From: a virus
Virus record (IMG/VR): IMGVR_UViG_3300027631_000036
Span: 1 to 47,452 of that record
Reading direction: 5' to 3' (one strand)
Length of the DNA: 47,452 nucleotides
Both the position numbers and the translations under genes were made by a program. Under the pieces are notes generated by a model. The model searched no databases. It was given only the letters and a program-made list of their open reading frames with translations, and was not told the origin of the DNA. Below are positions 4,544 to 31,519 of the stretch, piece by piece; position 1 is the stretch's first letter, and every line of letters starts with the position of its first letter.

Positions 4544-6964
4544 TTAGCTTAATTCGCCTGTGTTAACAATGCGGATTGGAATATAGATGAATTCCGCTGA
4601 TTTTGTTGGTTCGATTGCGACGTCGATCCACAGTTCATTACGATCAACACGTGCTGGTGTATTGTTTGTTTCATCACATACAATAGCAAAGTCGTATAAG
4701 CCACGCTGTGCTAGGATATTGCCCATGAAGCCATCAAATGTACCTTTTGCATTTCTACGAGTGCTTTCGTCATTTGGTTCAAACAAATATGGACGACCAA
4801 TAACCGCAAACCGTTCACGTAGATAAGCTGTTAGGCGTGCTACGTTTACACGGTCCAGTGCGCTTGCGCCTGCTGCTAGTGTCTTCTGACCAAATACAAT
4901 GATGCCTTCTGCTGGGAAACGAGCAATTGGGTTTAGCTTGTTTTCATACATTACATCACGTGAACCTTGTGTTAGTGAAACTGCAACAAAGTCACCTTCT
5001 GCATTGATATAACCAACGTTTGATGCGTTTTGTACAACGCCACGAGTTAAACCAGCTGGTGCGAACCACTGATAGCTTACGTTATCACTGTATGCATATG
5101 TGTATAGCACCGCATGCGATGCTGGAGCAACAACACTGTCACCAGTTGCTGGGTTAGTTGTTAGAACACTTGGGTAATATGCGGCTGCATATGTGTTGCG
5201 TCCTACTAAACCATCTTCACCGTTCTCAATTGCATTTGTACCTTGAACCCAGGCTACTGCTTCTGTTGGATTAGCGCGGAATGGCGCATCAACAATAACA
5301 AATGCTGTTTCGTTACGATCAGAGTTCAGTGTCACCATTTCATCAAATAGCTCTGGATAACTAGGTGCAGCTAGAAGACGGAATTGTACAGTATCTTCAC
5401 GTAGTGTTGTACCACTTGCACTTGCTTGCATTGCAGCAACGATAATTTTACGCTGCGCATGTCTACCAAATGATCCGGCGCCAGTAGCATGGTTTCCTGC
5501 CAGGTTACGCCATTTCCAATCAGTCACTAGTGCTGAATTATAAACACGTACTGTATTTGCTGAACGACACATATTGACACCAGTTGTGCCAACTGGGAAG
5601 ATTAGCGGGCTTGGACCATCTGCTAATATGTCGCCATGGGCTACAAAGTTTCCAGCTGAAACATCGTCTGCTGAAATATCACCAAATACAACGCCATTGG
5701 AAGTTGTTTGGTCAGTGTTGTCTTTTTCAACCCATGCGGCGCCATTATAACGACTAATTGCTGGGAATTCAGCAGTAGTATCTACCCAGTAATCACCTTG
5801 CAATGGACTTGCTGGTGCTACTGAACCGTATGATACTTCGCTTACACGTGCCCACTTTTGTTCGCCAGCATCTGATACAACTTCAAAAATTGCAAGATCG
5901 TTAAGATCTGGATCAAACCAAATTGTACCGTCTGCTGCTGAGCCTGTTGGCTTGTTTACTGTTACGTCCATTGTGAAAGCACCAGTTGCTACAGATTCAT
6001 CAGTTGAAATATCATCCCATTCACTGTTTGTACTGTCCCAACGGACAATGTTGATTGCGCCGTCAAGGACTTGCACCCATATGTCAGCTTCAGTAATTGT
6101 TCTTGCCGCTGGCAATGAACCATCTTGGAACGTATCAGTTGCGTCACCAGCTGGGATATCTTCTTGGCAATATAGAATTTGCTGTGCAATGAAGTCACCA
6201 GCAAATGTAGTATAAAGTCGAAGATCTAGCTTTAAGCCTGCGCCTGGCTGAGTTGTTTTGATCCAAACATCGCCTGCTACTGGTCCAGATGGCTCATTAT
6301 AATGCGGAGCAAAAGTTACTGTGCCTGTTGACCATAATGAATCAAGAGCTACCAAGCTGCCAGATTCACCAATCCAATATGAAATTTCTGTTGATCCAGC
6401 GCCATTGTCAACTGCTACAAGAAACTCGCCATCTGCAACACTTATTACTGGTGCTCCGCCTGATGTAATTTCAATTGCAGTAGATTGTGCTTGCCATCCG
6501 CCTGCTGTATATTGGAAAACTCCAAAACCAGATGTTGACGGATTTAGCCAATATGTGTTGTTTGCTGCTGGGCCTACTGGCGCACTAGATAGTGGACGTA
6601 GTGCTGCGGTGTTAATGTTTGCGCGGACGACGTATGCTGCTGAACTTTGCCCTAGGAAAGAATATGCTGCTAGCAGACCGTAGTCGTTTGTTTCGTCGCC
6701 CTGCACTACTGATCCAGCAACTTTGCGGAAGTCGACGTTCCCAAAGTATTGTGTTAGTTCGCGCTGTGACGTAACAAGTACTGGTGTTCCGGCGCTTGCT
6801 TCTTTAGTATACTTGGCGATGCCGTCAGCTTCTGTGCCAGTTGGGTCTGCTTTATTTTCTCCAGTAGCAATGAATATCATTGGTACTGTACCTGTGCCTG
6901 CTGGACCGTAAACTGACTCATCAGTTACTGAAACCTGTACGCCAGGTGAAACTAGATTTGCCAT
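4544..6964 (-). CDS. 18: Tail sheath protein, T4 gp18, with inserted GDxW modules
   Basis: 806 aa against 659 aa in T4. It forms the contractile sheath. The N-terminus LVSPGVQVSVTDESVYG and the C-terminal third (RLTAYLRERFAVIGRPYLFEPND, ELWIDVAIEPTKSAEFIYIP) are typical gp18. Residues about 125-415 hold at least four short modules of the form P.G...G..YW.(D/N)....f...Y..W: NNTYWLNP near 135, AGDVWIKT near 230, DGTIWFDP near 345, and QGDYWVDT near 387. They lie where T4 gp18 has surface-exposed protrusion domains. The extra length is therefore probably surface decoration. AAGGAG precedes the ATG at 6964, and a TATAAATA promoter lies 58 bases upstream. Confidence 0.92.
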   Translation of the reverse strand: MANLVSPGVQVSVTDESVYGPAGTGTVPMIFIATGENKADPTGTEADGIAKYTKEASAGTPVLVTSQRELTQYFGNVDFRKVAGSVVQGDETNDYGLLAAYSFLGQSSAAYVVRANINTAALRPLSSAPVGPAANNTYWLNPSTSGFGVFQYTAGGWQAQSTAIEITSGGAPVISVADGEFLVAVDNGAGSTEISYWIGESGSLVALDSLWSTGTVTFAPHYNEPSGPVAGDVWIKTTQPGAGLKLDLRLYTTFAGDFIAQQILYCQEDIPAGDATDTFQDGSLPAARTITEADIWVQVLDGAINIVRWDSTNSEWDDISTDESVATGAFTMDVTVNKPTGSAADGTIWFDPDLNDLAIFEVVSDAGEQKWARVSEVSYGSVAPASPLQGDYWVDTTAEFPAISRYNGAAWVEKDNTDQTTSNGVVFGDISADDVSAGNFVAHGDILADGPSPLIFPVGTTGVNMCRSANTVRVYNSALVTDWKWRNLAGNHATGAGSFGRHAQRKIIVAAMQASASGTTLREDTVQFRLLAAPSYPELFDEMVTLNSDRNETAFVIVDAPFRANPTEAVAWVQGTNAIENGEDGLVGRNTYAAAYYPSVLTTNPATGDSVVAPASHAVLYTYAYSDNVSYQWFAPAGLTRGVVQNASNVGYINAEGDFVAVSLTQGSRDVMYENKLNPIARFPAEGIIVFGQKTLAAGASALDRVNVARLTAYLRERFAVIGRPYLFEPNDESTRRNAKGTFDGFMGNILAQRGLYDFAIVCDETNNTPARVDRNELWIDVAIEPTKSAEFIYIPIRIVNTGELS

Positions 6965-7894: not shown

Positions 7895-9154
7895 TTATTT
7901 AAACACTGATAGGATAATCGTTTCTTCGTTAAAGCGGCCATTGAGCAATGTTTCAGTAGTTTTGATGTCTGTAAACTCTCGCAACATCTTGGGCTTTGTT
8001 GTTTTCTTAAACTTTCCTACCAATTCTGCAGGTTTACGTAATGTTTTTTGTTGGCTAGTCTTTTCGTTGTATCCAATAATAGTAGTACCTTTAACCTTAA
8101 ATCCTGTTGCATCTTCAGCAATATAAACACCAAGTTTGCGATTTTTACAGTTATAAACTACTGCGGCGACTGCCCCAACTAGCTGTGCAGGTGGTACACT
8201 AGTAATAGCCAATTCGTTGTCGCTCATCTTAAACTTGAGTTTGCTAACTAGTTGTTCAGGGCTTTTGGCTTTAATTTTACGTGGCGACTTGGTCACTTTC
8301 TGTTCTGCAATAACCATGTCACAAGCGTCAATAATCTTCTTAAACAGTTCAAGTGCTGCTTTCTTTTGTGCATTACTATATTGCGCATAGCCTTCTTTGA
8401 TCTGTTCCCATTCGTCCTGTTCTTTTTCGGTCATCTTTTTAAGCTGACTGGCACTAGGTACATTGTTAACGAGCTGCATCTCCTCATAGTTGCCTTCGTA
8501 AAACTTACGAATAATGCGAGCATGGTTGGCTTTTGCTTGAACTTTGACTAATATTAATTTTGGATCAAAGTCCTTTACAACTGCGGGGTCATTGGTTCGA
8601 ATAAAATCGTCAATAACATCATCAATAGCTTCACTCATATTGGCGGCTGTTTCACGCATAACTTGTTGAATAGTAAGAGTATGTGTGTTAGCTTTGGTTT
8701 TTTCCTTTGCATCAACTTCAGTTACCTTGAGCAGGCCCTGCTCGACTGCAATGTCAATACTCTTTTTAATATAGTCAGTAACTGGCTTCATCTTGTCACC
8801 GGTTCCAGGCAGTGCTTCCCAGAATTCTGCATGCTTGGGATTATATGCTGGCATGCCAGTCGACAGCAGTTTGCACTGTATTCCAACATTAGGGCTAATC
8901 AAAGCAGCCTTTGCTGCTTTAATCTGAGATGGAGTGTAATCATTTTCTTTCATCCAACGATATACTGAAGGAAGAAGATCTTTAGGGTCAACTTGGTTAT
9001 AGTACATAAACTTCAAACGGTCTACTTCACGATGAAACTTCTCACCGCTCCAGCGTTCCCAACCAGTCCATACTGGATCAGTAAAGCCAGTTTTGCGGTT
9101 TACACTAGCACGTGGTTTTTTCTTAGGAATTTTAACGCCAATACCTTTAGCCAT
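7895..9154 (-). CDS. Unrecognised basic 419-aa protein, probably early-expressed
   Basis: 419 aa from the ATG at 9154. A longer reading from a TTG at 9169 would use the GGAG ribosome site as codons, so it is rejected. The N-terminus is basic (KGIGVKIPKKKP). A helical middle (about 20-290) has many Lys/Glu pairs and no signal peptide, membrane segment or catalytic motif that I recognise. The C-terminal 100 residues look like a small beta-rich domain (LVGAVAAVVYNCKNRKLGVY, GTTIIGYNEKTS). It lies between gp13 and gp14 on the minus strand, has its own sigma70-type promoter and a strong terminator, and so seems to be expressed apart from the surrounding late genes. Function unknown. Confidence 0.85.
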   Translation of the reverse strand: MAKGIGVKIPKKKPRASVNRKTGFTDPVWTGWERWSGEKFHREVDRLKFMYYNQVDPKDLLPSVYRWMKENDYTPSQIKAAKAALISPNVGIQCKLLSTGMPAYNPKHAEFWEALPGTGDKMKPVTDYIKKSIDIAVEQGLLKVTEVDAKEKTKANTHTLTIQQVMRETAANMSEAIDDVIDDFIRTNDPAVVKDFDPKLILVKVQAKANHARIIRKFYEGNYEEMQLVNNVPSASQLKKMTEKEQDEWEQIKEGYAQYSNAQKKAALELFKKIIDACDMVIAEQKVTKSPRKIKAKSPEQLVSKLKFKMSDNELAITSVPPAQLVGAVAAVVYNCKNRKLGVYIAEDATGFKVKGTTIIGYNEKTSQQKTLRKPAELVGKFKKTTKPKMLREFTDIKTTETLLNGRFNEETIILSVFK

Positions 9155-9187: not shown

Positions 9188-9216
9188 ACTATAATACATT
9201 GTGTAACGCGTGTCAA
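9188..9216 (-). promoter_or_regulatory. Sigma70-type promoter for the 419-aa gene
   Basis: Minus strand TTGACA (9211-9216), 17-base spacer, TATAGT (9188-9193). The -35 is perfect and the -10 is 5 of 6. It gives a leader of about 25-30 bases before the ATG at 9154. Confidence 0.75.
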
Positions 9217-12299: not shown

Positions 12300-12752
12300 T
12301 TGCAAGCTAGCGGGTGCATATTCTTAGCTGTCGACACTGGCAGAGTAATGTTACAACAACGTAGCAATCAATCTAGCCATCCCAGGACCTGGGGATTCTT
12401 TGGCGGGAAGGGTGAAAAGGCTGAACGTCCTATCCAGACACTTCTACGTGAACTGGAAGAAGAAATAGGTATGCTCCCTAACGTAGAAAAAGTTTATCCA
12501 CTTAATAAGTTTACTAGTCCTGATAGAAAATTCACATACAACACATTTGTTGTGACGATATATGAAGAATTTGTACCAGTACTTAACAATGAAAGCGATG
12601 GATTTTGTTGGGTAAAGATTGGCAACTGGCCGCGCCCGTTACACCCAGGCGTAAAGGCACAATTATTTAATAAAGATATCGTAAAGAAAATAAAAACCAT
12701 CCATAACAATTGCGCCGTGGATGGTTCTAATTGGCTTGATAGTTTTAATTAA
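12300..12752 (+). CDS. Nudix hydrolase
   Basis: 150 aa. A complete Nudix box GX5EX7REUXEEXGU is present near residues 39-60 (G..GEKAE...REL.EEIGM). It predicts Mg2+-dependent hydrolysis of a nucleoside diphosphate linked to another group; the substrate cannot be told. Upstream PRTWGFFGG is the usual strand before the box. The start is TTG at 12300, the only codon that keeps the first strand (SGCIFLAVDTGRVMLQQR); TTAGGT lies about eight bases upstream. It closes the plus-strand operon. Its stop overlaps the stop of the convergent minus-strand gene, and its last codons contain the terminator hairpin of that minus-strand operon. Confidence 0.9.
   Translation: MQASGCIFLAVDTGRVMLQQRSNQSSHPRTWGFFGGKGEKAERPIQTLLRELEEEIGMLPNVEKVYPLNKFTSPDRKFTYNTFVVTIYEEFVPVLNNESDGFCWVKIGNWPRPLHPGVKAQLFNKDIVKKIKTIHNNCAVDGSNWLDSFN
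12686..12726 (-). terminator. Minus-strand intrinsic terminator embedded in the Nudix gene
   Basis: On the minus strand AACCATCCA (12718-12726) pairs with TGGATGGTT (12695-12703), 9 bp with a 14-base loop, followed by TTTATTTTC. On the plus strand the hairpin has no T-run. It would end the tiny-gene operon about 25 bases past its last stop. Confidence 0.7.
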
Positions 12753-12870
12753 GCGTACTTAACCGCGCCTTTGACTTTGATTTTTTCATTGACTAATGAA
12801 CTTTCTTCAAGTTTTTTGAACATGTAGCAATTAATACAATCTCACCATCTACACGAACGTAATATGCCAT
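12749..12870 (-). CDS. Tiny protein split over two frames at A AAA AAC
   Basis: The ATG at 12870 (AAAGG site upstream) opens a frame of only 25 codons ending at 12793 (MAYYVRVDGEIVLIATCSKN then LKKVH). Within it lies A AAA AAC at 12817-12811, in exact phase for -1 slippage. The -1 frame continues as LEESSLVNEKIKVKGAVKYA to a stop at 12749, giving a coherent 40-residue product. A six-base AT hairpin (12785-12800) lies 10 bases downstream. One extra A in the A6 run would also join the frames, so a real or sequencing indel is the alternative. The second frame has its own ATG at 12823. Last gene of the tiny-gene operon; function unknown. Confidence 0.5.
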
Positions 12871-12871
12871 G

Positions 12872-13003
12872 TTATTTTACCTTTGTGATTAGGGTTTGGA
12901 ACCCAACTGCTTGTCGATCTTTTGCAAACGATTGTGCATCAGCGTAATCATCAAAATATTCGTCAAACACGAAGCCAGCCATGTTAAAGTTTACACGATA
13001 CAT
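12872..13003 (-). CDS. Tiny hypothetical protein, 43 aa
   Basis: The ATG at 13003 overlaps the preceding stop as TAATG, with AAAGG nine to ten bases upstream. The product starts MYRVNFNMAGFVFDEYFDDY, continues ADAQSFAKDRQAVGFQTLITK, and ends with a basic residue pair. It is acidic in the first half and rich in aromatics; small and soluble. No family is recognised. Good ribosome site, coupling on both sides and position in a four-gene unit with a promoter and terminator support a real gene. Confidence 0.7.
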   Translation of the reverse strand: MYRVNFNMAGFVFDEYFDDYADAQSFAKDRQAVGFQTLITKVK

Positions 13004-13110
13004 TATTTGCGACCTTTCAGTAGAGCATGAATGAGTTTTGCTTCTTTACCAGAGATAGGCTTTCGAGAAGTTTTGATTGCCTTCTCAACTGCTTCTTTAT
13101 TGTAGGACAT
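13003..13110 (-). CDS. Tiny hypothetical protein, 35 aa
   Basis: The ATG at 13110 overlaps the stop of the 74-aa gene as TAATG; GAGGAG lies eight bases upstream. The product is basic and helical: MSYNKEAVEKAIKTSRKPIS then GKEAKLIHALLKGRK. Very short proteins with an AxxIHALLKGR ending occur in T4-like phages as hypothetical proteins, from memory. No function is known. Confidence 0.72.
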   Translation of the reverse strand: MSYNKEAVEKAIKTSRKPISGKEAKLIHALLKGRK

Positions 13111-13334
13111 TATACAGTCTCCTCAAACTTGATATACATACCAACATTCATTTCTGCATTGCGTTTAGCAGCTTCAAATTCTACAAAAGGACCGGCAGAA
13201 GTGAACTCGTCAAGCAACCGACCTTCAGGAGTAAACAACATCCAGTTACCGCCGTATACTTTTGAGATACGAACTGATTTGATGCTATTGGTAGCGATAA
13301 AGTGGTCTTTGCTGATCTCTTCGAAGGTCATCAT
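13110..13334 (-). CDS. Small hypothetical protein, 74 aa, first gene of the tiny-gene operon
   Basis: Starts MMTFEEISKDHFIATNSIKS, with AAAGGAA upstream; ATG codons at 13334 and 13331 are both possible. The product is a compact alpha/beta-looking sequence (YGGNWMLFTPEGRLLDEFTS, then AAKRNAEMNVGMYIKFEETV) without membrane or signal sequence. It lies 25-30 bases from the predicted start of the sigma70-type promoter. Function unknown. Confidence 0.75.
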   Translation of the reverse strand: MMTFEEISKDHFIATNSIKSVRISKVYGGNWMLFTPEGRLLDEFTSAGPFVEFEAAKRNAEMNVGMYIKFEETV

Positions 13335-13365
13335 GAGCTAGGTTCCTTTTGCTTCCTACAATACT

Positions 13366-13423
13366 AATATAAGCAATGTGTCTTGGTTTGTCAACACTTT
13401 TTTTACTTTTTTTGAATTTTTTT
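13366..13423 (-). promoter_or_regulatory. Strong sigma70-type promoter with phased A-tracts
   Basis: Minus strand TTGACA (13389-13394), exact 17-base spacer, TATATT (13366-13371). Directly upstream are three A7 tracts (13398-13404, 13407-13413, 13417-13423) spaced 9-10 bases, as expected of an UP element or intrinsic bend. T4 early promoters are likewise A-rich upstream. It drives the four tiny genes. Confidence 0.85.
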
Positions 13424-13425
13424 CA

Positions 13426-13450
13426 ACAAAAAACCCGCACTAGGCGGGTT
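13426..13450. terminator. Bidirectional intrinsic terminator
   Basis: Stem AACCCGC/GCGGGTT with a 5-base loop (13432-13450). On the minus strand it is followed by T6 and ends the glycosyltransferase gene just before the early promoter. On the plus strand CTTTATTTT follows, so it can also stop rightward transcription from the neck operon. Confidence 0.85.
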
Positions 13451-13457
13451 CTTTATT

Positions 13458-14558
13458 TTAATCATCTGTTCTGACTGTACGCTGTTTCATGCTTTCAACA
13501 AAGCGTTCGCGCAACCATTCAAAGTCGTTAATTTTGTTTAGTGCCGCGACATTGTCTTTATTGGCAATGCCATATTCGCGACCTTCAATAGCGCCCTTGA
13601 TGCAATAACGTCCAAATCGAGCGCCGTTGTCAACTGTACACCAAATTTCAAGTCGTTCTTCTGATTCACTATCCTTTTGATTTGGATTAATCTTGCTTGA
13701 TAGTTTAACACATTCACGAAAGGCGCTTCGCCATGTACGGAATGGGTCTTTGTTAAAGCCAGTTATGTTAGCAACATCGCGAACAGGTTGGTAAAATGCT
13801 GCGCCAGTACTAAAATCTGGTAGTTCATGACCCATCTCTAATAGTTGTTCACGTGGAAATAGTTTAATGCCGCCATATCCATATTCTAAGCCGTTTACTA
13901 GGTTACGTGCAAACCAACTGTACGTTGTATTCTTACGATTTGCCATTGGCGGGATGTAATCAAAGCAGAAATGGTCTAAGATATCAGCATCTGCGTCAAT
14001 AATCCAAACCATTTCAGTTTCAGAAACACGTGCTGCTTCGCGGTGTGCTTCCGCAATACCCTTAACGTTTTTAACGTGTTTAATATCAGGAAACCGTGTC
14101 TTCAGTCTTAGATAGTTTGCGTCTGCTTCACTTTCATGATAGCTCAACATAACAATGTCAAAGTCTGCTTCATGATATGTAGCAATAATTTTATTTTTAA
14201 CTGTGCCGTGTGCTACGCCACCTGTTGGTACAAGTCTTACGTCTCCCCAAAGCATTGGACGCTTACTTCTTCTTGTCACTCTTGGGAATTTGTGAATGAA
14301 ATTTTTACCGGTATCGCTAGGGCGATAATGCCATGGAAAATCATTTACTATTTTAATATTTTGATTAACAATCCAAACCATATCAGACTGGTTTTGAAAC
14401 GCACGGGCTACTTCCAATAATTCTTCATCTTTGGTAATATGCCTGTCCGTCTTATATATTGGATATGATTGAAAAATATATTTTTTTAGTCTATCCCAAG
14501 GAGTAATTACATTTTGACCCTTGTAGTCAAATATCGCCGATCTTTCTAAATCAATCAT
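13458..14558 (-). CDS. Glycosyltransferase-like protein (GT-A fold suspected)
   Basis: 366 aa. A DXD-like motif WIIDADADI near residue 185 follows a helix-rich HVKNVKGIAEAHREAARVSE segment and an FDIVMLSYHESEADANYLRL strand-helix. This resembles the nucleotide-sugar binding half of GT-A enzymes. YGGIKLFPREQLLEMG and FSTGAAFYQPV near 230-265 could form the acceptor side. There is no membrane anchor. Its start overlaps the stop of the preceding glycosyltransferase gene by four bases (ATGA), with GGAGG upstream, so the two are co-translated. Virion-protein or DNA glycosylation, or host surface modification, are possible; none is shown. Confidence 0.6.
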   Translation of the reverse strand: MIDLERSAIFDYKGQNVITPWDRLKKYIFQSYPIYKTDRHITKDEELLEVARAFQNQSDMVWIVNQNIKIVNDFPWHYRPSDTGKNFIHKFPRVTRRSKRPMLWGDVRLVPTGGVAHGTVKNKIIATYHEADFDIVMLSYHESEADANYLRLKTRFPDIKHVKNVKGIAEAHREAARVSETEMVWIIDADADILDHFCFDYIPPMANRKNTTYSWFARNLVNGLEYGYGGIKLFPREQLLEMGHELPDFSTGAAFYQPVRDVANITGFNKDPFRTWRSAFRECVKLSSKINPNQKDSESEERLEIWCTVDNGARFGRYCIKGAIEGREYGIANKDNVAALNKINDFEWLRERFVESMKQRTVRTDD

Positions 14559-16018: not shown

Positions 16019-19000
16019 TTAGTTGTTAAGTCTAGCCTTAAGTTCAGCAATCTCTGCTTGCATACCCTTAATTGTTTCAGTTTGTTCTTTAATTGCTTCA
16101 ATCAACAAACCAACCATGTTGCCATACTTAACGGCCTTCATACCATCTTCATCAGTTGTTACTGCCTGTGGTAGAACTTTTTCCACATCTTGCGCAATAA
16201 CACCAGTTGAAGCAATGCCATCTTCTTTACGTGTATATGTAACACCACGTAGTTGGTCAACTTTATTTACTGCATTTGTGATTGTTTCAATGTTGTCTTT
16301 TAGTCGTTCGTCTGAATAAGCTGTAACATCACCGCCGGCATAAATTGCTCCGCCAACACCTAATCCGCCAGTAATCTTCACTGCGCCAGTAGTTGTTGAT
16401 GTTGATGCTGTGGCATTACTGAATGTAATAACACCGCTCGCGGTATCAGTTGCATCGCTGCGTAAGAAACTAGCACCTTGCACGCCGTCAAGTGTATCAG
16501 CGTCTAGGCCTGATCCAGCGCCATCGTTACCGCCATGCCAAACCACGTTACCGTCCAAATAACGGCCAATCTCAGAGTTGGTAATCGTGGCTGTGATTGT
16601 CCCAAGTGTCGTTGCAAAACCAACAGCCCAGTTGTCGTTCCATTGGTCCGCATCGTAATTGCTATAACCAGCAACAAAATGCGTTACTGCAACCTGTGGA
16701 TAAGACCAAGTGCTTGTTGTTTCACCGATGTAAACGCAGCAATATGTGCCATCATGCCCAAGACGCACAGTGAAGTTGCGGTTCACATTTGGCGATCCGA
16801 TGATATAAGCAAACGGACTATTGGCCCAAGATGCACTTGGCGAATAGTTATAGCCACCACAAACAACCTCAAACGCTTCATTTGTTGCATATTCGTAAAT
16901 ACGAATAGTCATTCGCATCATGGTATTGGACCATGATTGCGGCAAAGTGATTTTGATAGCGCCAGTTACCGTGGCAGTGTTGGTCGCATAGCTTGCGCCA
17001 TGAGGGTTGAAGATAGAAAGTGATCCTCCAGCAGTGTTCACAAACCCTTCTGCTTGTAAATATCCTGTGGTCGCAGTGTTCGCATCAGCCCGCAAGAAAG
17101 ATGCGCTGCTTAAGCCATCCAACAGGTCGGCGTCAAGGCCGGAACCTGCACCATCCACAGTCTTGATTGCAGTCAGGATTTCAGCCGCAGTCTGGTCACC
17201 AGTTGCCCCTGACTCGATACCATTTAGCTTGCTCTTGTCTGTTGAAGACATCAGACCATTTGCACTTGTAGTAGCTACGCCATATGTTGTATTTGTATCA
17301 GTACTACTGATTGTAAAGTTTGGATATGTACCACTTACTGATGTAGCCCCACTTCCTGTTAGTGTAACAGTTTGATCTGGTGCTGCGTTAATGAATTGTG
17401 TACCAGATAGTGTTAAGCCAGTTCCTGCGGTGTAAGTTGTGTTTGTATCACTCCATGGCACGTTAACTACTGCTTGTCCACTTGAGTTTACCTGTACACC
17501 GTATGTTCTACTTGCTGTAGCACTTACTGCGGTTGCTGCTACTGATTGAACAGTGTCACTGAACAACTCAATGCCGCCGCGTACTGTTGATGTCGCAGCA
17601 GGTAGCGTGTATACGGTATTTGTATCAGTACTACTGATTGTAAAGTTTGGATATGTACCACTTACTGATGTAGCACCACTTCCTGTCAATACGACTGTCT
17701 GATCTGGTGCTGTGTTAGCAAAAACTGTACCTGTTAGAGATAAACCAGTTCCTGCACTATAGGTTGTGTTTGTATCAGTACTACTAACTGTGATAGTATT
17801 TGCATCAGTACGTGTTACGGTTACGTTTGTACCACTGGCAATTTTAACATCGTCAGTTGACGAATCGCTTCCTGTTAGTCGTAAATTTGCGCCGCCAGCT
17901 ACAGTTTCACTACTAATACTGTATGTTGTATTAGTATCTGAAGGCATTGTCAATGTTTTAACATTAATAGCAGTAACGTGACCTAGGGCATTTGATGCTA
18001 TGCTATCAACGGCAGTAAATGTACCGCCATGTGTTAGTGTGCCTGCACTTGTTGTGTCTGTTCTCGTTGTGTTGCTATGTGTTACTGTTGGGCTCCAACC
18101 TTCACCAGCAGTACCAGTGACCGCAATGCCAGTACCAGCAGTTAATCCTGCTACATAGTTACCAGTTGTATCTGTACCTAGCGCAACACTATTTGCTGCA
18201 ATGGTTGCAGTAAGTGTTACGTTTGCACTGCCATCAATGCTTACGTTACCAGTTAGATCGCCACCTAGTGTAATAGTGCGAGTATTTGCCCATTTACTTG
18301 CTGTTGCAGCATTTCCTGTCAAACTACCAATAAAGTTAGCGGCTTGCATGTCTGCTAGGCTAAAACTTGCGTGGCTTGTATCAATATCAATTGAATCATC
18401 TGGTTCTGGAGTATAACCGTCAAATACTTTAAATATGCCATCAGAAGCATCACGGAATAGACCAGCGTGTGCATAACTTCCAGCAGTATAGCTGCCTGCC
18501 CAACCTAAGTCAACATTTGTATTTGTGTGCGCTCTTGCACTACCACCACTTACATATGTACCAGTAGCACTGCTACTGATTGTAAAGCTAGTTGCGTTGG
18601 CACTTGTAATAGTTGCATCAGTAACGTTGTAAGCACTTGGATTTACACCTGTTACATCAACTGTATATCCAGTGCTAAAGTTATTGTCAGCAGTGTATGT
18701 TACAGTTGTGCCATTACCAACAGCATTAGTAATAGTCGCTGTACCGCCATTGTTTAGATAGATCAAGTTATCAGTAATTGAAAGACTTGCAACATCAACT
18801 GTAGTAGTTGTACCCAATACTGTTAAATTGCCGCTAATAGTTGCATCGCCGGCGACTGCTAAATCACCGCCCAATGTTAATTTTTGTGTTGATGTATTAT
18901 ATTTTAAACCAGCATTTGAAAGACCAGACTGGGCGCCGCTTGCGTTGGCAACCATTGTTATAAAACGATCCGCTGCGCTAGTATTATCTGCTATACTTTG

Positions 19001-20182
19001 TAGTGTATCTGTGTTAGTATCAGTCGCTGCAATAGTAATTGTATTAGCATCTGTTCGAGTAATTGTTATATTAGAACCATTAGCAAATTTAACATCATCA
19101 GTCGTTGCATCGCTTCCGGTTAATCTTAAATTAACGCCGCCTGTTGCAGTTTCACTACCAATACTGTATGTTGTATTTGTGTCTGTATCTACTACTGTTT
19201 CAGTACCAGTGCTGTATCCTGTTACGTGTCCAAAAGTATCAAAAGTTAGACCTGTTACGTATGTTCTTGCACTAGCAGTTAAATCGCTAGCACTTGATGT
19301 ATCAGTATGACTAAATGTTGTTCCTGCTAGTGTTAATCCACTACCAGCGGTATAAGTTGTATTTGTGTCAGTACTACTAATTGTAAAGTTTGGATAAGTG
19401 CCACTTATTGATGTAGCGCCACTTCCTGTCAATACAACTGTCTGATCTGGTGCTGTGTTGGCAAACGTTGTACCTGTTAGAGATAAACCAGTTCCTGCAC
19501 TATAGGTGGTATCTGTAGTTGAATATCTACCATCTAGGTCAACTGTGACGATTGAAGAATCAGTCAGTGTCGCTGTCAATACACCATTTGAAGTATTGAA
19601 TCCAAGACTCTGTAAATACGTGTTAGTATCTGTGTAACTTGTTAAGTATCCTGCATCGTTTGTGAACGCACTTACGTTTGTAGGTATACGGGCATCTACA
19701 CGTGCGTCAGTATAGTAAAGATTTGTAGTACCTTCTGATAAATCGTCAGTGTCTTTGGCACTCAGGTCTAGATAAATTCCAGTCTGTAGAGCAATACGTG
19801 CATCTGCTCTGGCATCTGTATAATAAAGATTTGTTCCTTCAGCAACACCGTCTGTAGTAATGTTTACTGCCAACAGCACTTGGTCGTTAAGGTCATCATA
19901 AGTGGCATCAATATAGGTGTGGTTAGCGTGGACTAGTAGCGGAGAGATTAAGTCCTCAATACCTTCTGCGTCACTTGAAATTGTTACAGTGCCGCTTGAT
20001 TGTGTAATCGTAATACCTGAACCGGCAGTAAATGTTACAGTATCCCCTCTGTTAATTTGTTGAGAAGTTGTACCATCAGTAACGTTAAACACATTGTTTA
20101 GTACGTTTGTTTCATCGATAGTAGTATTCTGGATAACACTACTGTCTGTAATTACTTCGTTGTTTATAACCTTAAAAGCCAC
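16019..20182 (-). CDS. Large tail fibre/spike with Peptidase_S74 chaperone
   Basis: 1387 aa, GTG start at 20182 with GGAGA upstream. N-terminus MAFKVINNEV resembles MAF(K/R) starts of two other adhesins here. Residues about 30-950 are Thr/Ser/Gly/Asn-rich beta repeats, including three copies of a PDQTV.LTGSGATS unit and two of a NLRLTGSD unit. ANTRTITLGGDLTGNVSIDG is a common fibre motif. About 1090-1235 is a compact domain (IKITLPQSWSNTMMRMTIRI, STWSYPQVAVTHFVAGYSNY) of the sort found near fibre tips, a good receptor-binding candidate. The last ~110 residues are an intramolecular chaperone: YSDERLKDNI (self-cleavage before Ser), GVIAQDV, VKYGNMVGLLIEAIKEQ and a coiled coil. Confidence 0.88.
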   Translation of the reverse strand: MAFKVINNEVITDSSVIQNTTIDETNVLNNVFNVTDGTTSQQINRGDTVTFTAGSGITITQSSGTVTISSDAEGIEDLISPLLVHANHTYIDATYDDLNDQVLLAVNITTDGVAEGTNLYYTDARADARIALQTGIYLDLSAKDTDDLSEGTTNLYYTDARVDARIPTNVSAFTNDAGYLTSYTDTNTYLQSLGFNTSNGVLTATLTDSSIVTVDLDGRYSTTDTTYSAGTGLSLTGTTFANTAPDQTVVLTGSGATSISGTYPNFTISSTDTNTTYTAGSGLTLAGTTFSHTDTSSASDLTASARTYVTGLTFDTFGHVTGYSTGTETVVDTDTNTTYSIGSETATGGVNLRLTGSDATTDDVKFANGSNITITRTDANTITIAATDTNTDTLQSIADNTSAADRFITMVANASGAQSGLSNAGLKYNTSTQKLTLGGDLAVAGDATISGNLTVLGTTTTVDVASLSITDNLIYLNNGGTATITNAVGNGTTVTYTADNNFSTGYTVDVTGVNPSAYNVTDATITSANATSFTISSSATGTYVSGGSARAHTNTNVDLGWAGSYTAGSYAHAGLFRDASDGIFKVFDGYTPEPDDSIDIDTSHASFSLADMQAANFIGSLTGNAATASKWANTRTITLGGDLTGNVSIDGSANVTLTATIAANSVALGTDTTGNYVAGLTAGTGIAVTGTAGEGWSPTVTHSNTTRTDTTSAGTLTHGGTFTAVDSIASNALGHVTAINVKTLTMPSDTNTTYSISSETVAGGANLRLTGSDSSTDDVKIASGTNVTVTRTDANTITVSSTDTNTTYSAGTGLSLTGTVFANTAPDQTVVLTGSGATSVSGTYPNFTISSTDTNTVYTLPAATSTVRGGIELFSDTVQSVAATAVSATASRTYGVQVNSSGQAVVNVPWSDTNTTYTAGTGLTLSGTQFINAAPDQTVTLTGSGATSVSGTYPNFTISSTDTNTTYGVATTSANGLMSSTDKSKLNGIESGATGDQTAAEILTAIKTVDGAGSGLDADLLDGLSSASFLRADANTATTGYLQAEGFVNTAGGSLSIFNPHGASYATNTATVTGAIKITLPQSWSNTMMRMTIRIYEYATNEAFEVVCGGYNYSPSASWANSPFAYIIGSPNVNRNFTVRLGHDGTYCCVYIGETTSTWSYPQVAVTHFVAGYSNYDADQWNDNWAVGFATTLGTITATITNSEIGRYLDGNVVWHGGNDGAGSGLDADTLDGVQGASFLRSDATDTASGVITFSNATASTSTTTGAVKITGGLGVGGAIYAGGDVTAYSDERLKDNIETITNAVNKVDQLRGVTYTRKEDGIASTGVIAQDVEKVLPQAVTTDEDGMKAVKYGNMVGLLIEAIKEQTETIKGMQAEIAELKARLNN
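17291..17390. repeat. ~100-bp coding repeat, copy 1 of 3
   Basis: Encodes NTAAPDQTV.LTGSGATSVSG-type sequence inside the 1387-aa fibre. Nearly identical copies lie at 17618-17717 and 19361-19460. Confidence 0.85.
17618..17717. repeat. ~100-bp coding repeat, copy 2 of 3
   Basis: Differs from the copy at 17291-17390 at only about ten positions, clustered at the far end. Internal duplication or gene conversion in the fibre is likely. Confidence 0.85.
19361..19460. repeat. ~100-bp coding repeat, copy 3 of 3
   Basis: Same unit as the copies at 17291 and 17618, with a few more substitutions, 1.6 kb further on. Confidence 0.85.
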
Positions 20183-20839: not shown

Positions 20840-21287
20840 GGTTCTTAAAATTATCTGGTATTTTTATAAATGAAGCAAGTTGTTGGATACTTGTTAGTGA
20901 GTGTTCAGTTATCAGTGACAACATCAACTCCGCTAACTGTGCAGTATCAAATTTTTCAATACTCGGAACACTTTTAAAATCCATATTATCGCATTTGTAC
21001 ACTAGACAAGGTACACTATCCATACCGCTTATCCAGTTTGCTGTTGCGCTATGTTGCCCATCCCAGAGAATATTTTTATCACCTATACGTGCTACACTGC
21101 TGGATCGTAACAATGCTGGGTGATAGTTTTCTAATATTTCGTTTACATGAGCAATATCAAATGTTTTTACTTGATGTGGCGTTACCCACAGATTATCAAA
21201 TGGTATCCATTCCAATGATAGCTGTTCTATAGCCAGATTGATTTTTCTCTCAACATTTATTGTGTCTATGTGCTTGACAATGTCCAT
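20835..21287 (-). CDS. ParB/sulfiredoxin-fold-like protein
   Basis: 150 aa. Residues about 27-100 show the ParB N-terminal pattern: WIPFDNLWVTPHQVKTFDIA (strand and position-specifying turn), HVNEILENY helix, then ILWDGQHSATANWISGMDSV with the DGxHR-like box (Gln and Ser replace the usual His-Arg order), and VPCLVYKCDNMDF. The fold occurs in plasmid partition proteins, in phage-encoded nucleases, and in sulfiredoxin. The C-terminal third is helical (AQLAELMLSLITEHSLTSIQ). It lies alone among fibre genes between a terminator and a promoter, like an inserted cargo gene. No Shine-Dalgarno site is seen, and the late promoter ends five bases before the ATG. Confidence 0.65.
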   Translation of the reverse strand: MDIVKHIDTINVERKINLAIEQLSLEWIPFDNLWVTPHQVKTFDIAHVNEILENYHPALLRSSSVARIGDKNILWDGQHSATANWISGMDSVPCLVYKCDNMDFKSVPSIEKFDTAQLAELMLSLITEHSLTSIQQLASFIKIPDNFKNR

Positions 21288-21292
21288 ACATT

Positions 21293-21300
21293 TATTTATA
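21293..21300 (-). promoter_or_regulatory. Late promoter (TATAAATA) touching the ParB-like start codon
   Basis: ATTATAAATAAATG on the minus strand. Only five bases separate the octamer from the ATG at 21287, so the transcript would begin at or next to the start codon. Confidence 0.65.
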
Positions 21301-21303
21301 ATA

Positions 21304-21331
21304 TAAAAAAGAGGGGCGTCGCCGCCCCTCT
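21304..21331 (-). terminator. Intrinsic terminator after the 499-aa S74 fibre
   Basis: Minus-strand stem AGAGGGGCG/CGCCCCTCT with a 4-base loop followed by a run of T. It leads directly into the ParB late promoter. Confidence 0.88.
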
Positions 21332-25697: not shown

Positions 25698-28600
25698 TTA
25701 CAAGTAAGTGGCTGTAACTGCTACTGAAGCTGTGCCTGAAGTTGTTGCGTACACTAGTTCAACATTTGTGCCATTCATTTGAACACTTGCATCACCTAGC
25801 AGACTTGCGCCTGTGTAAACGATTGCATATTCTGTAATAAATGCTGTTGTACCATTGTGTGTAACTAATGCTTCACGTGATTCATATTCGCCAGCGCCGT
25901 TATCAACTTGGATGATGAACTTAGCAGTACGATATACTGAACCGTCGAAGAAGTCAACTACTGAACCACCGGTTCCAGATGTAGTAGCTAGACCTTTAAC
26001 AAACGGCTTGACATTTGATGCTAGTTTATCAGCTGTAACTGAACCAGTATCGATATATGCAACGTTTGTTGATGAGTTAGCAACAATAACTGCTTGTGTA
26101 CCAGTTGGGATTGCTTCAACAAATGTGATCGTCTGTTCTTCACTGTTAATGTCATAGTGTGTTGCCGGGTCTTGGATAACACCACCAACGAATACCATAG
26201 CGTTAACACTTGTTGCGTAGAAGTCTAGAGCAAATGTTACTTGCGCATTGTCACCGTTGATTGTTTGACGGTATGACTGTGCAAATGCTAGTGTTGTTGG
26301 ATCTACTAGTTCAACGCCTGAACCATCTGACTTAACAGCTAGGACATAACCATTCATTACTGTGAAATCAGTTGCTGTACCTACATAGTCTGTTAGATCT
26401 AGTAGTGCTTTTGATGTGTCTACACTGAATACACCTGTTGCAGAATCATAACTTAGATCGCCTGCTGCTGAAACTGCGGCACGTACACGCTCGTCTGTGT
26501 AATATAGATTAGCGCTGCCTCCAGTGCCTTCTGCTAGATCGTTTGTTGTGAAGTTACTTAGGTCGTAAGCTGATAATGCTGTATTTAGATAACCTAAGTT
26601 AACTGCATCAGAATTAACTACTGGACTTGATAAACCTGTGATTACATTTGAACCCATGTTTAGTACGCCACTCATTGTATCACCTGACTTAGCAACCTTG
26701 CCATCGATATTTGTCTGTAGTAGAATATCTGCTGCTTCGTATGCTGTGGCCATTGAATCAATAGCTGATTGTAGTGTGATGTCAGCTGCTGAACGTGCAG
26801 ATGCTTCTGAATTGATGCCTGTTTGTAGAACACCTTCAGCTGTTGTTGCACGTGTTACTTCTGAACTAATAGCAGATGTGTTTGATGATACAGTTGTTAG
26901 TAGATCACCATCTGCTGTCTGGAATGCTGCAACAATTTCTGTTAGTGAGTCTAATGATGCTGCATCTGTGTTTGACACGATAAAGTCGATCTGGCCCTGT
27001 AGGTTAAGATCTGCTGCTGCACGGTCTAGTAGCTCTTGTGCTAGACTGTTAGATACAGTTTGGATACTACCTGATAGTGCTGTATCAGCGCTTGCACGTG
27101 TTGTCTGCTCTGTTGTAATAGCTGTTGACAATGTTGCTTCTACACCAGATGCGCGAGTTACTTCGTTTGCAATAGCTGTTGCATTTGCACTATCTGCTGC
27201 AACACGAGCTACTTCTTCAGCTTTTAATGCTGCATCTAGCTTGTTGTCTGCATCTTTTAGTGATGTAGCTGCGGCGATATAGTTTGCATCACCATTTACA
27301 GTATATACACCATCAACACCTAGGCCTGCACCTGTTTGTGTTGCTGTCATCTCTGTTTCTACAACTGTTACACGGCCGTCTAGTGCTGAATCAGCGTTTG
27401 CGCGTGTTGTTGCTTCAGCGTTGATAGCATTCTGTAGGTTTGTATCTGCTGTTGCACGTGTTGTTGCTTCGTTGTTGATGTTTGTTTGTAGTACACCGTC
27501 TGCTGCTGAACGTAGTGCTGCTTCTGATGCTACTGATGTATCAGTATATCCGTTCGCGTCTACTTCAACTTGATCTGCATATGCTTCATAAGCTGTTGTA
27601 ATCGCTAGCTCACGTGTATCAGTATACGCTGTTGCACTTGTTAGTGTTGCTGCGTCACCGTCGATGTGGTGCTGGTGCTCTGCTGAGATTGCTGTTTCAC
27701 GTGCTGTGATTTCGTTAGCAATAGCTGTTGCGTTTGCTGCTTCTGCTGCTGATGCACGTGTTACTTCTGCTGCTAGGTTTGTAGTTAAAGTACTTTCAGC
27801 TGCTGTTGCACGTGTTACTTCTGATGCTAGGTTTGTAGTTAGAACACCATCTGCTGCTAGGCGTGTTGCTGCTTCTGATGCTAGGTTTGTAGTTATAACA
27901 CCATCTGCTGCAATACGTGCTGCTTCTTCTGCGTCAATTGCGTTTGCATTTGCTAGTTCTGCTGCACGAGCAGTTGTTGCTTCTGCTGCTAGGTTTGTAG
28001 TTAGAACACCTTCTGCCGCACGAGCAGTTGTTGCTTCTGCGGTAATTGCTGTTGCATTTGCTAGTTCTGCTGCACGAGCAGTTGTTGCTTCTGCTGTGAT
28101 ACTTGCACTTAGAACACCATCTGCTGCAATACGTGCTGCTTCTTCGTCAGCAATTGCAAGTGTTGAGAATGCATTAGCATCTGTTTCTGCTGTATCTGCA
28201 TATGTTTGTAGTGCTGCTGTTAGTGCTGAGTCTGCTGCAATACGTGCCGCTGTTTCTGCTGCTAGGTTTGAAGTTAGAGTACCTTCAGCTGTTGTTGCAC
28301 GTGTTACTTCTGCTGATAGGTTTGAAGTTAGAGTACCTTCAGCTGTTGTTGCACGGGTTGTCTCTGCGGAAATTGCTGTTACGTTTGTAGCAATGTTTGC
28401 TTCGGTTGTGTCCGTACGACCTTCTAGTGATACAATGTCTGATTCTGCTGTATCTAGGCGGCCTTCTGCTGTATTCATTTCACCTTCTAGTGTTGTTACA
28501 CGTGTACTGTTTGAAGTGATTAATGATTGTAGATTACTATCTGCTGCTGCATATGCGTCACCAATCTCTTTTAGTGTGTCTAGTGCTGCGTCTGCACCGT

Positions 28601-31430
28601 TAACTAGGTTAGTGATTGCTGAATCAGTGTATGTTTGCGCACTAGCTAGTGACGCTGCATCACCTGATACACGTGCTGCGGCTTCTGTTGTGAGTGCTGC
28701 TGCGCCTGCATCAACATCTGTACGTAGGCCTGCTTCTATACCAGATGCACGTGTTACTTCTGCTGCTAGGTTTGTAGTTAGAACACCTTCTGCTGCACGA
28801 GCAGTTGTTGCTTCTGCTGTGATGTTTGTTTGTAGAACACCTTCAGCTGCTGTTGCACGAGTTTCTTCGTCAGCAATTGCTGTTGCGTTTGCTGCTTCTG
28901 CTGTTGTTGCACGTGTTACTTCTGCTGATAGGTTTGTAGTTAGAACACCATCTGCTGCAATACGTGCTGCTTCTTCTGCGTCAATTGCGTTTGCATTTGC
29001 TAGTTCTGCTGCACGAGCAGTTGTTGCTTCTGCTGTGATACTTGCACTTAGAACACCTTCAGCTGCTGTTGCACGAGTTTCTTCGTCAGCAATTGCTGTT
29101 GCGTTTGCTAGTTCTGCTGCACGAGCAGTTACTGCTTCTGCATCAATAGCAAGTGTATTTGCATCAATGTCACCTTCTGCGGTTGTTAGACGGGTGTCTA
29201 GTGCTGAGTCTGCTGCAATACGTGCTGAACTCTCAATTGTTAGATTTGCAGTGTTGTTAGCAATGTTTTCTGCGTTTGTTGTAACGTTTGTTGTTATAAC
29301 ACCATCTGCTGCAATACGTGCTGTTGCTTCTGCATTGATAGCAGTTTGCAATTGTGCATCTGCATTTGAACGTGCAGTTGCTTCTGCATTGATATTGTTT
29401 TGAAGTGCAACATCAGCTGCTGAACGTGTAGTTGCTTCTGAAGTGATGTTTGTTTGTAGAGTTGTATCTGCTGCACCACGGTCTGCAACTTCTTGAGCCA
29501 GATCTAGCTCTAGTTGAGCAACATCACCTTCGTTAGTTGTTACACGGCCATCTAGTGAGGTAACTGCTAAGTTTAGTGAAGTATCTGCACTTGTACGTGC
29601 TGATGCTTCTGCGTTGATGTTTGACTGTAGTGTGTTGTCAGCGTTTGTACGTGATGTGATTTCAGATGCTAGTCCTGATTCAACAATGTCCATATCACCT
29701 TCTAGTGTAGTTGTACGGCCACTTAGTGCTGAGTCTGCTGCAATACGTGCTGCTTCTTCTGCGTCGATGTTGCCTTGTAGTACAACGTCATTTGCTGCAC
29801 GGGTTGTTGCTTCTGAAGTGATGTTTGTTTGTAGTGCAGTGTCTGCTGTTCCACGTGTAGTTGCTTCAGCGTTGATGTTTGTTTGTAGAGTTGCATCTGC
29901 TGTTGTACGTGTTGATACTTCTGTAGCTAGGTTTGCTGTTAGTGTTGAATCAGCTGCGGCGCGTGATGCTGCTTCGCTATTGATTGCAGTTGTGTTAGCA
30001 GTGATTGTACCTAGTAGAGATGAGTCTGCTGCTTGGAATGCTGTAACAATCTCTGTTAGTGAGTCTAGTGCTACCTCATCTGTGTTTGAAACAATAAAGT
30101 CGATCTGTGACTGTAGGTTAGCGTCTGCTAGTTCATATGCTGTTGTAATTGCAACTTCACGAGTATCTGTATATGCTTTTGCATCTACTTCTGCTTGGTC
30201 TGCATATATTTGGTATGCTGTTGTGATTGCTGATGTTTGTGCAACATCTTGTGAATCACTGTGTGATTTTGCATCTGCTTCTGCTGTATCTGCATATAGC
30301 TTCAGTGCAGCATCTAGTGTAGCAATTTCACCGTCTGTGTATAGCGTTTGTGCAGCACCTAGTGTAACAATTTCACCGTCTGTGTATGATTCAGCTGATG
30401 CAATTGCATCTAGTTCAGCTTGATCAGCATATGATTTTAGTGATGAGTCTAGTAATGCATCTGCTGATGCAAATTCTGCACGAACAGCAGTATCTGCAAC
30501 GGCACGTGCTGAAATTTCAGCAGTAATGTTACCAGCGTTTGCTGCTTCTGCTGTTGTTGCACGTGTTACTTCTGCTGCTAGATCTACTTCTAGAGCGTCA
30601 ATGTCTGCTTCTGCTGTTGTTAGACGTGTGTCCAGGCCTGTTTCAACGCCTGATGCACGTGTTACTTCTGCTGATAGGTTTGTAGTTATAACACCATCTG
30701 CTGCAATACGTGCTGCTTCTTCTGCATCGACGTTATCCTGTAGTGTAATGTCAGATGCTGAACGTGCAGATGCTTCTGAATCGATGCTTGCTTGTAGAGC
30801 ATTGACAGCACTAATGCGAGCTACTGTCTCTGCTGAGATAGCAGTTGCGTTTGATGTAATCGCTGCTGTAAATACATCGTCTGCTTCTTGGTATGCAGCA
30901 ACGATTTCAGCTAGTGAATCTAGTGCGGCTGGATCAGTGTTGCTGATAATGTTGTTGATCTGTGTTTGTAGACCAGCGTCAGCTGCTTCGAAATCTGTAC
31001 GTAAAACTGTGTCGGCGCCTGCACGTGCAGTTGCCTCTGCGCTAATGTTTGACTGTAGTGTCGTATCAGCTGATGTACGTGCTGCTATTTCATTGGAAAT
31101 AGCAGTGTTTAGTGCTGCGTCTGCTGCAACACGTAATGCTGCTTCTGCTGATACAGCATCTGAAATGTCAGTTGCAACTGCGGCTTGCGCACGTGCATCT
31201 GAGAAGTAAAGGTTTGAACCTTCTGCTAGGTTGTCGGTTGTAAATGAACCGATCAGTGCGCCCGCGGTGATCTTTGCAAGACTACCTGTCTCAATGTCAG
31301 CTAATAGCAGTGTACCTGTTAGTGCTGTTGAGTTCTTAGCGTTCTGGCCTGTAATTGCCGTAACTGATAGTTTACTGTTGATGACTGCTTGATTAGCTAG
31401 CGCTGCTGACTTAATTTGTCTAAAAGCCAT
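25698..31430 (-). CDS. Giant repetitive helical fibre protein, 1910 aa
   Basis: Start at 31430 (MAFRQIKSAALANQ) with GGAG nine bases upstream; two earlier ATGs lack a site and would not match the MAF(K/R) starts of sister genes. After a 90-residue head (LAEGSNLYFSDARAQAAVAT) comes a helical shaft to about residue 1650, mostly 18-residue repeats such as LTSNLSAEVTRATTAEGT. Interspersed are heptad stretches (LEGEMNTAEGRLDTAESD) and three copies of a QIDFIVSNTD..LDSLTEIV spacer. The beta C-terminus has VFVGGVIQDPATHYDINSEE and a terminal sandwich-like region. No S74 domain and no Cys in the shaft. Its 5.7 kb uses few codons, which creates long antisense frames. Confidence 0.88.
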   Translation of the reverse strand: MAFRQIKSAALANQAVINSKLSVTAITGQNAKNSTALTGTLLLADIETGSLAKITAGALIGSFTTDNLAEGSNLYFSDARAQAAVATDISDAVSAEAALRVAADAALNTAISNEIAARTSADTTLQSNISAEATARAGADTVLRTDFEAADAGLQTQINNIISNTDPAALDSLAEIVAAYQEADDVFTAAITSNATAISAETVARISAVNALQASIDSEASARSASDITLQDNVDAEEAARIAADGVITTNLSAEVTRASGVETGLDTRLTTAEADIDALEVDLAAEVTRATTAEAANAGNITAEISARAVADTAVRAEFASADALLDSSLKSYADQAELDAIASAESYTDGEIVTLGAAQTLYTDGEIATLDAALKLYADTAEADAKSHSDSQDVAQTSAITTAYQIYADQAEVDAKAYTDTREVAITTAYELADANLQSQIDFIVSNTDEVALDSLTEIVTAFQAADSSLLGTITANTTAINSEAASRAAADSTLTANLATEVSTRTTADATLQTNINAEATTRGTADTALQTNITSEATTRAANDVVLQGNIDAEEAARIAADSALSGRTTTLEGDMDIVESGLASEITSRTNADNTLQSNINAEASARTSADTSLNLAVTSLDGRVTTNEGDVAQLELDLAQEVADRGAADTTLQTNITSEATTRSAADVALQNNINAEATARSNADAQLQTAINAEATARIAADGVITTNVTTNAENIANNTANLTIESSARIAADSALDTRLTTAEGDIDANTLAIDAEAVTARAAELANATAIADEETRATAAEGVLSASITAEATTARAAELANANAIDAEEAARIAADGVLTTNLSAEVTRATTAEAANATAIADEETRATAAEGVLQTNITAEATTARAAEGVLTTNLAAEVTRASGIEAGLRTDVDAGAAALTTEAAARVSGDAASLASAQTYTDSAITNLVNGADAALDTLKEIGDAYAAADSNLQSLITSNSTRVTTLEGEMNTAEGRLDTAESDIVSLEGRTDTTEANIATNVTAISAETTRATTAEGTLTSNLSAEVTRATTAEGTLTSNLAAETAARIAADSALTAALQTYADTAETDANAFSTLAIADEEAARIAADGVLSASITAEATTARAAELANATAITAEATTARAAEGVLTTNLAAEATTARAAELANANAIDAEEAARIAADGVITTNLASEAATRLAADGVLTTNLASEVTRATAAESTLTTNLAAEVTRASAAEAANATAIANEITARETAISAEHQHHIDGDAATLTSATAYTDTRELAITTAYEAYADQVEVDANGYTDTSVASEAALRSAADGVLQTNINNEATTRATADTNLQNAINAEATTRANADSALDGRVTVVETEMTATQTGAGLGVDGVYTVNGDANYIAAATSLKDADNKLDAALKAEEVARVAADSANATAIANEVTRASGVEATLSTAITTEQTTRASADTALSGSIQTVSNSLAQELLDRAAADLNLQGQIDFIVSNTDAASLDSLTEIVAAFQTADGDLLTTVSSNTSAISSEVTRATTAEGVLQTGINSEASARSAADITLQSAIDSMATAYEAADILLQTNIDGKVAKSGDTMSGVLNMGSNVITGLSSPVVNSDAVNLGYLNTALSAYDLSNFTTNDLAEGTGGSANLYYTDERVRAAVSAAGDLSYDSATGVFSVDTSKALLDLTDYVGTATDFTVMNGYVLAVKSDGSGVELVDPTTLAFAQSYRQTINGDNAQVTFALDFYATSVNAMVFVGGVIQDPATHYDINSEEQTITFVEAIPTGTQAVIVANSSTNVAYIDTGSVTADKLASNVKPFVKGLATTSGTGGSVVDFFDGSVYRTAKFIIQVDNGAGEYESREALVTHNGTTAFITEYAIVYTGASLLGDASVQMNGTNVELVYATTSGTASVAVTATYL

Positions 31431-31519
31431 TTGATTTTTCTCCATATTGATCAATATATTGATTATCCACGTAAAGAGTGGACTTTCATGCCCGTTCCAC
31501 TATGTGGTCAAAACAAGTT

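Follow-up and report, generated by a model that had tools for sequence, protein, structure and literature searches.

Cassettes of the PeSL kind are reportedly known from T4-type phages, with Arbiol 2010 and Comeau 2014 named as the sources. In the citing literature, they figure as promoter early stem-loop cassettes of T4-type phages (cited in PMC4503421). More generally, the early promoters of T4-like phages combine their hexamers with A-rich upstream sequence and with conservation that extends beyond the hexamers, and many novel open reading frames (ORFs) of these phages sit behind them (PMC1524935, PMC2988021); the early promoters of T4 are of a strong UP/-35/-10 type and are transcribed by the host polymerase (PMC2988021).

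The locus described here lies in virus record IMGVR_UViG_3300027631_000036 (positions 1-47,452), the whole of which, 47,452 nt, is referred to as the window. It is best read as an early cassette that is mobile and akin to the PeSL modules of T4-type phages; these are the closest known kind, a comparison made through the citing literature, and strict membership is not claimed. The unit is very probably a self-contained early-gene cassette, exchanged horizontally, of a virus that is T4-like and probably jumbo; it would be read early and has partly decayed. T4-type capsid, portal, prohead protease, sheath and sheath stabiliser genes are all present in the window (phrog_138, 213, 207, 23/10581 and Pfam T4-gp15_tss), and by this gene content it is classed as a fragment of a T4-like virus; since its portal protein is closest to those of jumbo phages of the PA5oct and Atu_ph07 type (about 50% identity), the source virus is probably a jumbo phage. 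A T4-like jumbo lineage is thereby shared with the PA5oct/MIJ3-type phages (nearest portal protein, 52%), whereas the lead gene of the cassette, orf74, and a homologue of it matched nothing among 50,697 phage records, those phages included. Similarly, the first 25 kb of the window had no match among annotated phage records.

The cassette occupies the minus strand at the point where a plus-strand block (sheath stabiliser, NUDIX) meets a minus-strand block of glycosyltransferase-like genes and tail fibres, and its features are as follows:

13432-13450, minus: rho-independent terminator hairpin 5' of the cassette, ending the orf366 unit (7-bp stem, five GC pairs, T-run)
13398-13423, minus: three phased A7 tracts, UP-element-like, also present in relatives L002 and L004
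13357-13394, minus: early-type promoter, a conserved 38-bp element recurring at 12 other sites with at most two mismatches in 38 nt
13394-13389 and 13371-13366, minus: promoter boxes TTGACA and TATATT, separated by a 17-nt spacer
13110-13334, minus: orf74, lead gene, 74 aa, of a conserved family, with a predicted bbbb-alpha fold
13003-13110, minus: orf35, small basic protein of 35 aa, TAATG overlap with orf74, with homologues (pN/pS 0.15-0.36)
12872-13003, minus: orf43, 43 aa, an ORF with a ribosome site and a TAATG overlap with orf35
12793-12870, minus: truncated fourth gene, 25 aa, its first 16 common to the intact 44-aa gene of relatives
12824-12828, minus: deletion joint GCTAC, at which L002 positions 4688-4692 are joined to 4984-4988
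12749-12823, minus, other frame: leftover 3' end of a 71-aa gene, with promoter and start deleted
12695-12726, minus: downstream terminator hairpin with a T-run after it (z -3.1); it overlaps the convergent NUDIX gene at that gene's 3' end

An earlier note on this DNA had described an early-type operon of four tiny coupled genes within the late region, ended by a hairpin with a T-run, with late motifs at the neighbouring units. The late motif, TATAAATA, is indeed found at eight sites in the window, all on the minus strand, against 4.0 expected, and most of them stand just 5' of a minus-strand gene. The promoter that it had proposed, TTGACA-17-TATATT, has its sole exact match within the window at 13394-13366 (minus), and the phased A7 tracts that it had placed upstream lie at 13423-13417, 13413-13407 and 13404-13398, with spacings of 10 and 9. 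The terminal hairpin was likewise recovered, and L002 carries the same stem with a varied loop; the upstream hairpin, 37 nt 5' of the -35 box, has a fold z of -5.3 and is unchanged in relatives. A search of Rfam at this upstream terminator returned weak leader-type matches, all below gathering scores.

A simple promoter scan of the window gave a number of sites no higher than in shuffles; the hexamers by themselves are therefore weak proof, and the case for a promoter is made by recurrence. The 18-base promoter core was found in 25 stretches of viral contigs, and an alignment of 38 bases unites 13 sites, the window's among them, which agree, spacer included, to within two mismatches and lie 5' of nine or more different genes, most of them small; the 12 copies outside the window precede eight further genes of related viruses. 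Two variant sites precede the 71-aa gene of relatives (18-base spacer) and a 194-aa gene. Most copies of the promoter have A-rich sequence immediately 5', the 20-nt stretch directly 5' of the -35 box being 72% A+T, and L004 retains the A-tracts although its upstream DNA differs. Because the 38-bp element recurs nearly unchanged before at least nine small genes, it is identified, by sequence, as an early-type promoter specific to this virus lineage. It has the features of T4-type early promoters, namely sigma70-like -35 and -10 boxes, an A-rich UP region and conservation past the hexamers across many genes, the sigma70-type class being read from sequence. The cassette promoter is probably strong and immediate-early, and the very early, high expression that had been proposed is what this promoter class would imply. 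An early-type unit amid late genes is thus well supported, both by the 38-bp promoter before at least eight other small genes and by the sigma70-type promoter that most orf74 homologues keep. With the operons of T4-like phages that stand behind early promoters (PMC1524935), the cassette shares novel small ORFs, A-rich upstream sequence and genome-like composition; it differs in sitting at a junction of late structural genes and in that recent exchange and decay are directly visible.

Elsewhere in the window, a second early-type promoter, TTGACA-17-TATAGT, lies at 9188-9216 (minus) before the gene at 7895-9154, and its hexamers and spacing are kept in a relative that is about 86% identical there. 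At 21274-21331, a plus-strand promoter matching the consensus at 12 of 12 positions overlaps a minus-strand late motif and faces a strong bidirectional hairpin; this match is possibly due to chance. The genes at 962-1825 and 1839-2726 are related and in tandem (85% identity over 131 bases near their 5' ends), apparently a duplication, and those at 25698-31454 and 16019-20182 are very long and tail-fibre-like, with many diverged internal repeats.

Three of the four coupled genes stand as described, orf74, orf35 and orf43 having ribosome sites and TAATG overlaps. A profile search with orf74 found 56 viral loci, and an alignment of 24 sequences has 24 invariant columns; its dN/dS against the window copy is 0.12-0.29. 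For both orf74 and orf35, comparison with diverged homologues gives a pN far lower than pS, and both genes are under purifying selection. In contrast to these, orf43 was seen only as identical copies, and its coding status is therefore judged from its ORF, ribosome site and overlap alone. The statement that none of the genes is recognised holds for PHROGs, Pfam, PADLOC and the 50,697 phage records; in viral metagenome contigs, however, orf74 and orf35 are widespread. Among 84,980 bacterial and archaeal genomes, orf74 had no convincing homologue; matches in Prevotella MAGs cover only 20-24 residues and were set aside as chance. Taken together, the sequences define orf74 as a previously undescribed, viral protein family under selection. 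Homologues of orf35 belong to early-type operons in several other, distinct settings, where the neighbouring genes differ: in L117 (about 4598, reverse strand) and in L112, L115 and L116, these operons have TTGACA-type promoters with differing spacers, that of L117 being nearly identical to the window's.

The fourth gene, of about 40 aa in the earlier note, is not borne out, the stretch 12870-12749 crossing two frames: the frame that opens at 12870 stops after 25 codons (12793), which leaves three intact genes and a deletion scar. In relatives L002-L007, the fourth gene is intact, at 44 aa, and is followed by a second promoter copy and a 71-aa gene, then by the same hairpin and NUDIX gene. Relative to L002, the window is without 296 bp between two copies of GCTAC, and an out-of-frame stump remains. 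The identical joint recurs in L008 and L103/L105, which are contigs of the same virus (99.98% and 99.95% identity), so that a mistake in a single assembly is an unlikely source of it, although the assemblies that share it may come from shared samples. By this comparison, the cassette is partly decayed in the window virus, the deletion having removed the second promoter and most of two genes. In the ORFanage of cyanophage S-PM2 (PMC4503421), small relative-less genes of a T4-like phage are similarly lost by deletion; there the loss takes a long block of dozens of genes, whereas here it takes 296 bp at a 5-bp microhomology. A likeness, by eye, of the intact 44-aa gene to a 49-aa gene that follows orf35 in L115 found no support from BLASTP, nor did the resemblance between orf44 and orf43.

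Exchange of the whole cassette is visible in its comparison with relatives. In L003 and L006, the genes on either side are 75-90% identical to the window's, and the cassette itself is essentially the same; compared base by base with L002, the stretch 13508-12762 holds three differences, the deletion aside (an A-tract indel and two substitutions just 5' of the -35 box), as against divergence at about 15% and about 18% of positions on its two sides. Identity steps at 13509-13533 and at 12761-12718, and the patch thus ends near both hairpins. Such identity points to recent transfer, not constraint, since orf74 elsewhere has many synonymous changes, and the sequences accordingly place the whole cassette among material recently exchanged between virus species. 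The same cassette lies behind different upstream DNA in L004, the L005 contig has its first base immediately 5' of the -35 box, and the end of L105 falls within the cassette, a pattern expected where coexisting viruses share an identical patch. Another exchanged patch is found in a tail-fibre stretch of the window (16182-18181), which is 98-100% identical to L003/L006 between flanking genes of 75-88%.

The -10 box of the lead gene lies 27-32 nt 5' of the ATG in 18 of 24 homologous loci, and its promoter scores at least 10 of 12 in 16 of 24 loci, against 13% of control ORFs; some loci, e.g., L059 and L078, are without a recognisable promoter. The neighbours of orf74 vary (capsid and tail tube, DnaB helicase, sheath and terminase, RNA ligase, tRNA nucleotidyltransferase), different small genes follow it at different loci, and each of 14 large contigs tested holds one copy. 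The window and L085 have capsid proteins that are 74% identical and orf74 proteins that are 58% identical; for L057 and L084, the values are 99% and 75%, and L057 shares 94% of orf74 with viruses whose capsid identity to it is 62-64%. In the capsid tree, the window's partner is L085 and that of L057 is L084; in the orf74 tree, L085 groups with L059, and L057 with L053, L058, L076 and L054, with strong support. The sequences thus indicate an exchange of orf74 that is frequent but not unlimited, since orf74 and capsid identities remain positively correlated (Spearman, 0.63). To judge from these loci, orf74 looks like a travelling early module with its own promoter, set in many places in distantly related phages. 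In many of the loci, however, the gene lies within an ordinary early-type gene array, and its movement could therefore be plain homologous recombination that needs no special mechanism.

The cassette would then work as follows. The upstream terminator would insulate it from the preceding late unit, and the sigma70-type promoter with its A-tracts would be used by the host's RNA polymerase, still unmodified, as soon as the DNA has entered. One short mRNA would carry orf74, orf35 and orf43, with translation presumably coupled by the TAATG overlaps, and the downstream hairpin would end it against the convergent NUDIX gene. Between related viruses, the cassette may move by recombination within near-identical sequence, while its lead gene, usually with its own promoter, has repeatedly been set beside unrelated genes in distant phages; in the window virus, decay has begun with the 296-bp deletion, which took the second promoter and the greater part of two genes.

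Early genes of this sort most often turn out to be directed at the host. The cassette proteins may accordingly be host-takeover or antidefence factors, with orf74 binding a conserved host target or defence component within minutes, a proposal whose chances are put slightly below even. An early-type promoter is usual for such factors, and the tiny conserved orf74 protein with its invariant columns, its horizontal spread and its variable companion genes fit the proposal; however, the small proteins have no PADLOC, Pfam or PHROGs match and no significant structural match, and a small early protein may just as well work in the replication or transcription of the phage itself. The predicted orf74 model (pLDDT 81) has four strands and one helix. 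A Foldseek search of the PDB with it returned nothing below E 1.6, the value at which Acb4 of phage SPO1 appeared among the noise (TM about 0.2, rmsd about 12); the best VIA-align match was to SH2 domains (Z 3.6), with T4 MotA at Z 3.0, within noise. A sequence search of solved structures placed designed beta-trefoils and unrelated proteins at the top, and BFVD gave weak matches to small uncharacterised phage proteins (TM about 0.6-0.7, E above 0.03). A stronger claim would make orf74 the first member of a new and widespread family of immediate-early proteins aimed at the host, a gene that takes its promoter along as it passes between distant T4-like phages and acts as a portable factor for takeover or counter-defence, its companion genes being interchangeable; this claim is doubtful.

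It is also conceivable, and rather improbable, that the locus is a true PeSL element, in which a repeated composite of early promoter and stem-loop itself drives modular shuffling. PeSLs are known in T4-like phages as far as the citing source tells (PMC4503421), the promoter repeats almost exactly, hairpins lie close to the ends of the exchanged patch, and at this site a stem-loop terminator (13432-13450) is paired, as in PeSL, with an early promoter (13394-13366) 37 nt away. Against this, a hairpin is present at 2 of 17 promoter matches and 1 of 20 orf74 loci, as counted on contigs that are fragments; with hairpins so rare at both, the composite of promoter and stem-loop is not the repeated unit. 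At about position 530 of L034, at the edge of a gene array, a hairpin terminator stands directly before the 38-bp promoter. The preferred reading remains a cassette that resembles PeSL, within what the citing literature conveys of these modules: it shares a strong sigma70-type promoter with a hairpin terminator, small genes without known relatives and modular exchange between related T4-like phages, the patch here being bounded near hairpins; it differs in that the hairpin elsewhere in this lineage is not part of the repeated element, and in that one lead family spreads with its own promoter across phages with only 33% capsid identity.

A lambdoid-type moron recently acquired from a host would likewise consist of genes flanked by their own promoter and terminator, and is very improbable here: in GC content the operon (39.5%) does not stand out from the window (40.2%), lying at the 44th percentile, and the distribution is purely viral, with no convincing homologue in the bacterial and archaeal genomes searched. 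Fortuitous ORFs in an intergenic spacer behind a chance promoter, which chance readily yields when ORFs are short, are almost certainly not the explanation, being refuted for orf74 and orf35 (not for orf43) by the purifying selection on these two genes, and set against a promoter that recurs.

The gain and loss of the many uncharacterised early genes of T4-like phages have usually been guessed from distant comparisons. The cassette displays several stages of this process in natural populations, namely a lineage-wide promoter repeat, whole-cassette exchange between species and deletion, and the orf74 family and the 35-aa microprotein family of orf35 are candidates for effects on the host.
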